A stretch of 64,000 bases of DNA, from assembly GCA_040902655.1 (NCBI GenBank), contig JBBDWV010000037.1, forward strand, positions 20,585 to 84,584, in the 5' to 3' direction. The translations under genes were made by a program, and so were the position numbers. Source of the stretch: Mycobacteriales bacterium. GTDB lineage: Bacteria > Actinomycetota > Actinomycetes > Mycobacteriales > SCTD01. Shown piece by piece: positions 22,782 to 33,600 of this stretch; the first letter of the stretch is position 1; the number at the start of each line of letters is the position of its first letter. Below the pieces are notes generated by a model, which was given only the letters and a program-made list of their open reading frames with translations, did not search any database and was not told the DNA's origin.

Positions 22782-22883
22782 TCTCGCAGGCGCGGCCGGG
22801 GCATGATCCGGCCTTCGCCGGGGAGGGGAGCCGCAGAGGGCGCGGGACCCCGCGTCGAACCCCCGTACTCCTGGAGGTCCGTC

Positions 22884-23090
22884 TTGACCACGCTTCGTGA
22901 TGAGGACATCACCACCACCGTCACCAACGCCCTCCCCGGCGGCGACGCCGACCAGAGCGACAGTCCGGGAGCCGACCCGGCGGGTGTCGACCCGGCCGGC
23001 ACCGACTCGGCCGGTGGGGACGCCGACCAGAGCGACAGGGGCGACGCCGACCAGAGCGACAAGGGCGACGCGGACTCCTCCGACAGCTGA
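22884..23090 (+). CDS. Small Asp-rich repeat peptide, candidate oxygenase substrate
   Basis: This 68-residue reading frame starts with TTG, 6 nt after GGAGG. The first 20 residues (to ALPGG) look leader-like. The rest is built from GDADQSD three times (near 20, 45 and 53), a degenerate GDADSSDS end and [11 protein letters not shown] spacers, giving a very acidic, Asp-dense peptide. It has no Cys and no membrane segment. The stop is five bases before the start of a JmjC/cupin oxygenase gene. I recognise no family. A precursor modified by the oxygenase is an inference. It could also be a disordered acidic protein. Confidence 0.6.
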
Positions 23091-23095
23091 GGTCG

Positions 23096-24286
23096 GTGTC
23101 CGCGCCGGGGTCGGCTCTGGCCCGCTGCACCTGCGTCGGGGCCGACGTCTTCGCGACCGAGCACTGGTCGCGTGCGCCGCTGTTGACGCGCGCGAAGCAG
23201 CTACCACGGAACTTCGACGACCTGCTCTCGGCTGACGACGTCGACGAACTGGTCGCGGAGCGCGCGCTGCGCTCGCCGTTCTTCCGTACCGTGCGCGAGG
23301 GTGCCGGCCTGCCGGCACCCACCCGCACGGTGACCGCCGGGGCCCGACGCCTCGGCGACCTGGTCGATCCCGAGGCGCTGGCCGCGCAGTACGCCGACGG
23401 CGCGACCCTGGTGCTCCAGGCGGTACATCGCCTGCACCCGCCGGTCGCGCGGTTCTGCCGTGACCTGGCCGGCGAGCTCGGCCATCCGACGCAGTGCAAC
23501 GCCTACCTCACGCCCGGGGGGCAGCACCAGGGCTTCGACTTCCACCACGACACCCACGACGTGTTCGTCCTGCAGGTCAGCGGTCGCAAGCGCTGGGTGG
23601 TGCACGAACCGGTCGTCCGGCTGCCGCTGTCCTCACAACCGCAGGCGGGCGCGCACCTCGTCCCCGAGGGCGCCGAGCCGCTGCTGGACGTCGAGCTGGA
23701 GGCCGGCGACGCCCTGTACCTGCCCCGCGGCTACGTCCATGCGGCGCTGACGACCGACGTCGACTCGGTGCACCTGACCGTCGGCGTGCTGTCCACGACC
23801 TGGTACGACGTCCTGACCGACGCCGTCGCGCTCGCCGGCCGTGAGCAGACCTTCCGCGAGGCGCTGCCGGTGCAGCCGGCCGCGCAGGTCGGCGAGCTGC
23901 TGCCGGCCTTCCTGCGCCGGGCCGCGCAGTGGCTGGAGCAGCTGCCGGTCGAGGAGGTCGGGCAGGCGGTCGCCGACCGGCTGGCCCGCTCGGTGCCGGT
24001 GGAGCCGGTCAGCCTGCTGGCGACCGCCGCGGCCGAGCGCGCCCTGGAGCCGCCCACCCCGCAGCGGCCCCCGGCGGGGCACGCGCCGGCGCTGCGCGTC
24101 GCGGACGGGTCGGCGGTGCTGACGGCGCCCGGGCGGACGCTGACGCTGCCCGCCTTCACCCTGCCGGCGCTGCGCCGGCTGTTGGCGCGGCCGTCGACGC
24201 CGGCGGAGCTGCCGGGGCTCGATGCGGACAGCGCGCTGGTCCTCTGTCGCCGGATGCTGCGCGAGGGGATCGTCCGGCCGGGCTGA
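23096..24286 (+). CDS. JmjC/cupin-type Fe(II)/2-oxoglutarate oxygenase
   Basis: The 396-residue protein resembles the ribosomal-oxygenase (cupin_4/JmjC) family. [11 protein letters not shown] is the usual N-terminal helix, and the core is [20 protein letters not shown] followed by VSGRKRW. Iron ligands are probably His150, Asp152 (H-x-D) and His215 in LPRGYVHAA. The C-terminal half is the dimerisation/winged-helix region. Known relatives hydroxylate Arg or His of ribosomal proteins or residues of natural-product peptides. Here the GTG start lies just after an Asp-repeat peptide gene, making that peptide the obvious candidate substrate. The direct target is unproven. Confidence 0.85.
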
Positions 24287-24593
24287 GTGGGTGGCGGGGG
24301 CGCGGAGCCGGAGCTGGCCTCGGAGCCGGAGCTGGCGACCGGTCCGGGCGGCCATAGTCGTTGGGCCCGCCGCGGTGACTGTCCGGCCGTGCCGGCCGTG
24401 CCGGCCACCGGGGGCTCCGGGGGCTCCGGGGGCTCCGGGGGCTCCGGGGAAAGTCGTTGGGCCCGCCGCGGTGACTGTCCGGCCGTGCCGGCCACCCGGC
24501 GCGTACCGACACGCGGGTGTCTGGCGGCGTGCCTACCCTTGTCCACAGCAGCATCGCAAGCACGGACGGACCAGCCCGATCCGCGGCAGGCTC
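24287..24593. other. Repeat-rich intergenic region
   Basis: The 307 bp between the oxygenase and the HTH gene hold two direct copies of a 42-bp repeat and a run of a 9-bp repeat, listed separately. No gene is apparent. Confidence 0.7.
24356..24493. repeat. 42-bp direct repeat pair flanking a 9-bp tandem repeat
   Basis: Identical 42-bp copies at 24356-24397 and 24452-24493 each contain the dispersed CGCGGTGACTGTCCGG motif (24371-24386 and 24467-24482). Between them lie four tandem GGGGGCTCC units (about 24408-24447). Confidence 0.92.
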
Positions 24594-32622: not shown

Positions 32623-32712
32623 ACTCCAGGGTAGGCACCCCCCGTACCGCTCGCATCTGCACCGGACAGGTGGGATCCCGGCAGCGGTCGCGGAAGCCGT
32701 ACGGTGCAGCGG

Positions 32713-33600
32713 ATGACGCAGTGGTGCTCGGCCGACTCGCGGGCGCGCGAGGAGCCACTGACGGCGACCGCCAGCCGGGTCGAGCGCTGGCTGCTCGTGG
32801 AGCACCGCGGGGCGTGGGGGCCGCAGCCGGTTCCGAGCAGCCGGCTGCCCGCCGCCGTGGCCCGCTCCCTGGCACGAGCCGCCGCGGCTGCCGACGCCCG
32901 GCTGCTGATGCTCCGCCGGCCGTCCGGGATCGCCGCCGGTCCCGGCCGCCGGGCCTTCGCCGTCGACAGCCGGCCCGGCCACGAGCAGGTGCTCGCGCGC
33001 ACCGTCCACGATGACGACGAGCTGCTGCGCCTGGGGTGGGACGGGGACCCGCAGTGGCGTCCGTACGACGGGCCGCTCTACCTGGTGTGCACGCACGGGC
33101 GGCATGACCGCTGCTGCGCCCTGCGCGGCCGGCCGGTCGCGCAGGCGCTCTCGCGGCGGCACCCCGACCGCACCTGGGAGTGCTCCCACGTCGGCGGTGA
33201 CCGCTTCGCGGCCAACCTCCTGGTGCTGCCCGAAGGGCTCTACCTCGGCCGGCTGGCCGCAGCCGACGTCGTACGCGTGGTCGAGGACCTGGCGGCCGGC
33301 CTGCTGCCCCCGGGACAGGTGCGGGGACGCGCCAGCCTGCCGCTGCCGGTGCAGGCGGCGCAGGCCTTTGCCCGGGAGGCGCTGGGACGGTGGGGAACCG
33401 CAGACCTGAGGCCGGTCGAGCAGGTCGCGGTGGGCGCGGAGGTGTGGCGGGTGCGACTGGCCCCGCCCGGCGTCGAGGTGCCCGGCGTCGAGGTGGTGGT
33501 CCGCTATGACCGACGCGGCGACGGGGCGCGGCACCTGCTCACCTGCGACGCGGAGCAGGCCAAGATCGTGCCGCTGTTCCGCCTGGTGTCGCTGTCATAG
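32713..33600 (+). CDS. Sucrase/ferredoxin-like family protein
   Basis: The 295-residue protein matches the sucrase/ferredoxin-like (thioredoxin-fold) family. Features are an N-terminal Cys (QWCSADSRAREEPL) and the central motif LVCTHGRHDRCCALRGRPVA with WECSHVGGDRFAANLLVLPEGLYLG. In this family the Cys/His residues suggest a [2Fe-2S] site and an electron-transfer role, but the function is unproven. The ATG at 32713 is preferred, with GTG at 32704 an alternative. It is divergent from menF. Confidence 0.82.
   Translation: MTQWCSADSRAREEPLTATASRVERWLLVEHRGAWGPQPVPSSRLPAAVARSLARAAAAADARLLMLRRPSGIAAGPGRRAFAVDSRPGHEQVLARTVHDDDELLRLGWDGDPQWRPYDGPLYLVCTHGRHDRCCALRGRPVAQALSRRHPDRTWECSHVGGDRFAANLLVLPEGLYLGRLAAADVVRVVEDLAAGLLPPGQVRGRASLPLPVQAAQAFAREALGRWGTADLRPVEQVAVGAEVWRVRLAPPGVEVPGVEVVVRYDRRGDGARHLLTCDAEQAKIVPLFRLVSLS

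Follow-up and report, generated by a model that had tools for sequence, protein, structure and literature searches.

ROX enzymes are protein side-chain hydroxylases, catalyzing for example the C-3 hydroxylation of His (PMC9994133), and JmjC/cupin hydroxylases also occur in clusters for ribosomally synthesized and post-translationally modified peptides (RiPPs), as in the biphenomycin system, where they are represented by PbsQ/BpmG and PbsQ hydroxylates Orn (PMC12257519). In addition, the RRE-Finder 2025 study describes fusions of a RiPP recognition element (RRE) to a JmjC domain (PF08007), with bacterial homologues of the eukaryotic examples lying in RiPP-like contexts (PMC12710340). Here we analyze a pair of genes, encoding an Asp-repeat peptide and a JmjC/ROX-type oxygenase, within a 64,000-nucleotide stretch of contig JBBDWV010000037.1 of a Mycobacteriales bacterium (assembly GCA_040902655.1, positions 20,585 to 84,584 of the forward strand), hereafter the window, whose own numbering is used throughout. 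We propose, with a probability of about 0.72, that these two genes form the core of a RiPP-like cassette in which the oxygenase hydroxylates the Asp-repeat precursor, most likely at the beta-carbon of Asp.

The putative precursor gene (22884..23090, + strand) starts with a TTG at 22884, ends with a TGA closing at 23090 and encodes 68 residues. Its leader, residues 1-19 (22884..22940), carries the motif DEDITT at 22899-22916, and the Asp-rich core (22941..23087) contains three GDADQSD repeats (residues 20-26, 45-51 and 53-59), two DPAG units and a terminal GDADSSDS (residues 61-68). Five bases separate the TGA from the GTG start, at 23096, of a Fe(II)/2-oxoglutarate (2OG) oxygenase of 396 residues (23096..24286, + strand), whose iron ligands H150-x-D152 and H215 are encoded at 23543..23551 and 23738-23740 and whose 2OG-binding K165 is encoded at 23588-23590. 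An earlier note on this DNA, made from the sequence alone, had correctly described the repeats and the GDADSSDS end, the five-base interval and the intact HxD...H ligands. It had also described a leader ending in GG; the leader is present, but GG is frequent in the window's clade alone, and the conserved feature is DEDITT. A ribosome-binding site, TGGAGG, lies 6 nt 5' of the TTG (22872..22877), and a run of at least four bases matching AGGAGG was found at similar spacing in 57 of 62 homologous precursors. An alternative start at an ATG at 22803, giving 95 residues, was rejected, as this ATG is not conserved.

Oxygenase matches were detected in 57 of the 396 Actinomycetota genomes searched, five of which hold only distant homologues, and the family itself is carried by about 52 of the 396 (13%); a scan of species genomes yielded 13 homologues. 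The earlier note had suggested looking for Asp-repeat frames upstream of the oxygenase homologues and had named their consistent absence as a refutation, a condition that the results do not fulfil. An Asp-rich short open reading frame (ORF), defined by an end lying between a 12 nt overlap and a 160 nt gap before the oxygenase, was found directly 5' of the enzyme in all 62 family members for which the upstream sequence reaches 200 nt, and also in 10 of 10 held-out loci fetched later from further relatives. By comparison, the same loose criterion was satisfied by 23 of the 339 other genes of these loci, and by none of seven distant homologues, among which L070 is counted. The loci excluded were L002/L113, where the upstream sequence is a poly-C contig end, and L122, L045 and L074, where too little of it was available. 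Culturable carriers of the family include Nakamurella endophytica and Pseudonocardia sp. ICBG1293. Clustering of the neighbors by protein similarity showed that the flanking genes are mostly unrelated between loci; the linkage of peptide and oxygenase is therefore not mere synteny, and the cassette behaves as a unit. Phage records gave no match, and plasmid records gave, among the matches listed, distant homologues only (36.5% identity or less). Beside one distant JmjC homologue (L068) we observed an upstream 45-residue frame with a ribosome site and an SDGND end, lacking Asp repeats, and a similar GDGND end was observed at L067.

The family precursors range from 45 to 155 residues, contain 7 to 37 Asp each and end from -1 to 141 nt before the oxygenase gene. 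In nearly all of them the leader carries D-[DE]-D-[IMV]-x-[TS], usually 5-15 residues from the start, so that one motif is common to precursors with very different cores: GDADQGDS/DPAG in the window's clade, HDGGADGGAD/EGPADGG in other members of its class, and DGTDGDATD or DADAADADAS mostly in other classes. The cores consist of 26% Asp, 23% Gly, 20% Ala, 8% Thr, 7% Ser and 2% Glu, and none of the precursors contains Cys. A variant precursor at L064 (G113:C1:3605560-3607300), carrying PTEDDENLDAPGEHSQDTGDE twice, has Glu and His in its core, unlike the others. Searches of the precursors against Pfam and NCBIfam returned no covering model, and a sub-cutoff match of one precursor to a daptide model was judged to be due to chance.

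Between close pairs Asp is the best-conserved core residue, kept at 96%, and its codons show 35 synonymous changes against 3 Asp/Glu swaps, indicating that Asp itself, and not acidity alone, is selected. Ratios of non-synonymous to synonymous substitution rates (dN/dS) of the precursors were 0.02-0.3 in most pairs, a few reaching 0.7. Close relatives differ mainly at third codon positions, which account for 28 of 30 differences between the L016/L024 precursors. The earlier note had pointed out that an untranslated small frame would speak against its proposal; the purifying selection and the ribosome sites indicate, indirectly, that the frame is translated.

The oxygenase matches Pfam JmjC_2 (PF08007, E 1.2e-25), and H150, D152, H215 and K165 are invariant across a 45-sequence family alignment. 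Its AlphaFold model (predicted local distance difference test, pLDDT, 94.5) superposes on NO66 with a Z of 30.9, covering residues 2-396 (377 residues aligned, root-mean-square deviation 5.1, 25% identity), and the closest solved sequences are those of NO66, MINA53 and YcfD. The enzyme thus has the features of the ROX group, namely the HxD...H triad and the 2OG-binding Lys in a JmjC fold together with a C-terminal winged helix. The earlier note's reading of the pair as a RiPP system gains support from this analysis, as an encoded precursor with leader and repeat core stands beside a peptide-modifying type of 2OG oxygenase.

The C-terminal winged-helix domain, residues 332-396 (24089..24283, + strand), is proposed as the leader-binding site. 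Assignment by DSSP on the model gave strands at 332-336, 339-344 and 347-352 and helices at 353-364 and 377-389 separated by a short helical turn, matching the order of three strands followed by helices given for RREs in PMC12710340. By this order of elements and its proposed use the modeled domain is RRE-like; it is not classed with the PqqD family, since PqqD (PF05402) gave no match in 18 winged-helix domains and searches of PDB and Pfam with a winged-helix profile retrieved no PqqD, the nearest solved sequence being the YcfD-like 4csw (E 0.22). The leader motif is absent from four members that form one clade in the tree (L034, L036, L038 and L039), and in these the winged-helix score falls below 10 versus more than 50 in the rest of the family, as measured with a profile built from the motif-bearing members (the motif of L010 is borderline). 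Glu/Asp 390 is also lost in these four, and every other aligned member retains it. For L003, read-through translation (TAG read as Gln) produced a peptide-enzyme fusion for modeling, in which the first ten residues had a mean pLDDT of 96, with a strand at 9-12, and residues 17-90 fell below 50. This fits a docked leader with a free core, and together with the correlated loss it suggests that the winged helix may bind the leader.

Neighbor clustering, performed on 31 regions of 8-21 kb, also revealed a partner overlooked by the earlier note, which had taken the oxygenase as a single tailoring enzyme. Of the 30 regions with a called oxygenase, 20 have behind it a gene for a Suc_Fer-like protein (PF06999), which abuts or overlaps the oxygenase gene, often by 3-10 bases. 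In the window the orthologue of this third gene, encoding a [2Fe-2S] thioredoxin-fold protein, is placed elsewhere (32704..33600, + strand, 63% identity to the L007 cassette gene): on the same strand, 8.4 kb downstream of the oxygenase and beyond menaquinone genes. At L005 it is likewise distant, about 7 kb downstream and on the same strand. Assignment of orthologues and paralogues by BLAST identities showed the second PF06999 gene of the window's genome (G000 contig C61 25058-25606; L095, L101) to be a separate paralogue untied to the cassette. Among eukaryotes, the Suc_Fer-like relatives Apd1 and Aim32 are [2Fe-2S] proteins (PMC8482512, PMC11126956). Short-chain dehydrogenase and ABC ATPase families were also recurrent among the neighbors, at scattered distances, and were judged to be background.

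In the mechanism that we propose, the short gene would yield a precursor whose N-terminal leader (DEDITT) serves for recognition and whose core is made of Asp repeats, the ROX-type JmjC oxygenase would hold the leader through its C-terminal winged helix, and, using Fe(II), O2 and 2-oxoglutarate, it would hydroxylate core residues, most likely at the Asp beta-carbon, acting repeatedly along the disordered repeats. The Suc_Fer-like [2Fe-2S] protein would be the third partner, probably as a redox helper. Several observations weigh against this proposal. The long-branch member L070, which the tree places among the family, lacks an Asp-rich peptide within 6 kb, and no conserved protease or exporter was found among the clustered cassette neighbors, which is unusual for a secreted RiPP; host enzymes could supply leader removal or export. 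Regarding leader binding, the tether in the L003 fusion model forces proximity, which limits what the model can say on docking, and the joint loss of leader motif and decay of the winged helix represents a single evolutionary event.

Three other explanations of the pair were weighed. The peptide could be the substrate and its product something other than hydroxy-Asp, through oxidative cross-linking or hydroxylation of the Ala, Thr or Ser adjoining Asp; the abundance of Gly and Ala in the cores leaves room for this, but core residues other than Asp are freer to vary, Asp being the best kept of all, and the solved ROX relatives are hydroxylases, and we consider such a product unlikely. That the acidic peptide stays unmodified and acts on the oxygenase as cofactor, metal chaperone or inhibitor, for instance in iron delivery, would suit the metal binding of Asp-dense peptides and the origin of the third gene in an Fe-S protein family. 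The leader/core layout with its freely varying number of repeats (7 to 37 Asp) is nevertheless substrate-like, and Glu hardly ever takes the place of Asp, which makes this explanation improbable.

The position of the frame immediately 5' of the oxygenase, together with the ROX fold of the enzyme, would also be expected if the frame were an attenuator-type leader peptide whose Asp codons sense the supply of Asp-tRNA and govern how the oxygenase is translated, and the real substrate lay elsewhere, such as a ribosomal protein as for NO66 or YcfD. However, residues other than Asp are conserved, DEDITT above all, the distance to the oxygenase gene is as variable as noted above, many precursors exceed 100 residues, no terminator-like site was found in the window region, and the leader motif and the winged helix are lost together; we therefore regard attenuation as very improbable. 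The gene context argues for the peptide rather than a ribosomal protein as the substrate of the oxygenase. With hydroxylation of the Asp repeats as our preferred interpretation, the leading guess for its purpose is the binding of metal, iron or calcium, by repeated beta-hydroxy-Asp. A broader proposal, which we offer tentatively and hold to be doubtful, is that the three-gene cassette makes poly-(beta-hydroxyaspartyl) peptides of 7 to 37 Asp that are widespread in actinobacteria and act as iron- or calcium-binding polymers, whether retained intracellularly or released.

As for regulation, an inverted repeat, CGCGGGACCCCGCG (22841..22854), lies about 30 nt 5' of the precursor start codon and is kept in the window's close relatives, being present in the window, L003, L004, L007 and L008 and in a variant form in L005. 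This palindrome is no rarer than chance in the window taken alone, only its conserved placement being of note, and it could be an operator. No IdeR-type iron-regulator box was found upstream of the precursors at up to 6 mismatches, and a promoter and terminator scan near the pair in the window found nothing. Just 3' of the oxygenase, at 24354-24530, two direct-repeat copies (agtcgttgggcccgccgcggtgactgtccggccgtgccggcc) flank a short GGGGGCTCC tandem array.

The locus on the Streptomyces clavuligerus plasmid pSCL4 (BB341_RS33075/RS29820; L106 3757-3903) may represent a sister system, one whose core is Asp-Pro. There a 48-residue peptide, MDDKKTSLEPDEIEVIPPVSTPDFVIADNDPSDPPIAIADPDPFDPVI, with a PDEIEV leader, lies 91 bases upstream of a related JmjC protein annotated as 'cupin domain-containing protein'. 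Unlike the window's system, the pSCL4 enzyme is only 36.5% identical over 61% of the query, the peptide has no GDAD-type repeats, and an S9 peptidase and an ABC transporter lie downstream. Further distant JmjC relatives annotated as cupin proteins were observed on plasmid p1 of Streptomyces sp. WAC00288 (L111) and plasmid psa3239 of S. yangpuensis (L109), with YcaO/TfuA genes, or a carbamoyltransferase and peptidases, as neighbors; the wider JmjC family thus recurs in RiPP-like clusters.

Our searches of the open literature, from which subscription papers and bioRxiv were mostly absent, brought up no account of Asp-repeat precursors paired with a JmjC enzyme, and on sequence grounds we regard the cassette as a candidate for a new RiPP family whose enzyme is of the ROX type. 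The precursor gene is small and unannotated, and it suggests that a widespread family of modified peptides in actinobacteria has been overlooked. If the peptide is the substrate, many actinobacterial 'cupin' genes, relatives of the ribosomal oxygenases, would encode peptide-modifying enzymes with a known cognate substrate, making their function directly testable. Our proposal, if true, would also add a precursor family that neither Pfam nor NCBIfam models and would place bacterial Suc_Fer-like proteins in a functional context. It would further suggest how ribosomal oxygenases could have given rise to RiPP enzymes, the winged helix serving for recognition.

Compared with the described systems, the window's enzyme shares with NO66 (RIOX1), MINA53 (RIOX2) and YcfD (PF08007) the full-length fold, including the C-terminal winged helix, and the iron and 2OG ligands, and protein side-chain hydroxylation is the chemistry known for those enzymes. 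They act on ribosomal proteins and lack a companion peptide, whereas the family described here is accompanied by an Asp-repeat peptide encoded upstream and, often, by a Suc_Fer-like protein. With the RRE-Finder 2025 fusions it has in common an RRE-like fold joined to a PF08007 JmjC domain, but the accessible part of that study (PMC12710340) describes no precursor family, Asp repeats or Suc_Fer-like partner. Finally, PbsQ/BpmG of biphenomycin resembles the proposed system in being a JmjC or cupin-like hydroxylase that works on a ribosomal precursor, but it acts late in tailoring, on a core with an FRF motif and alongside MNIO, arginase and radical SAM enzymes, whereas in the window's system no other clear tailoring enzyme accompanies the JmjC enzyme and the core consists of Asp repeats.
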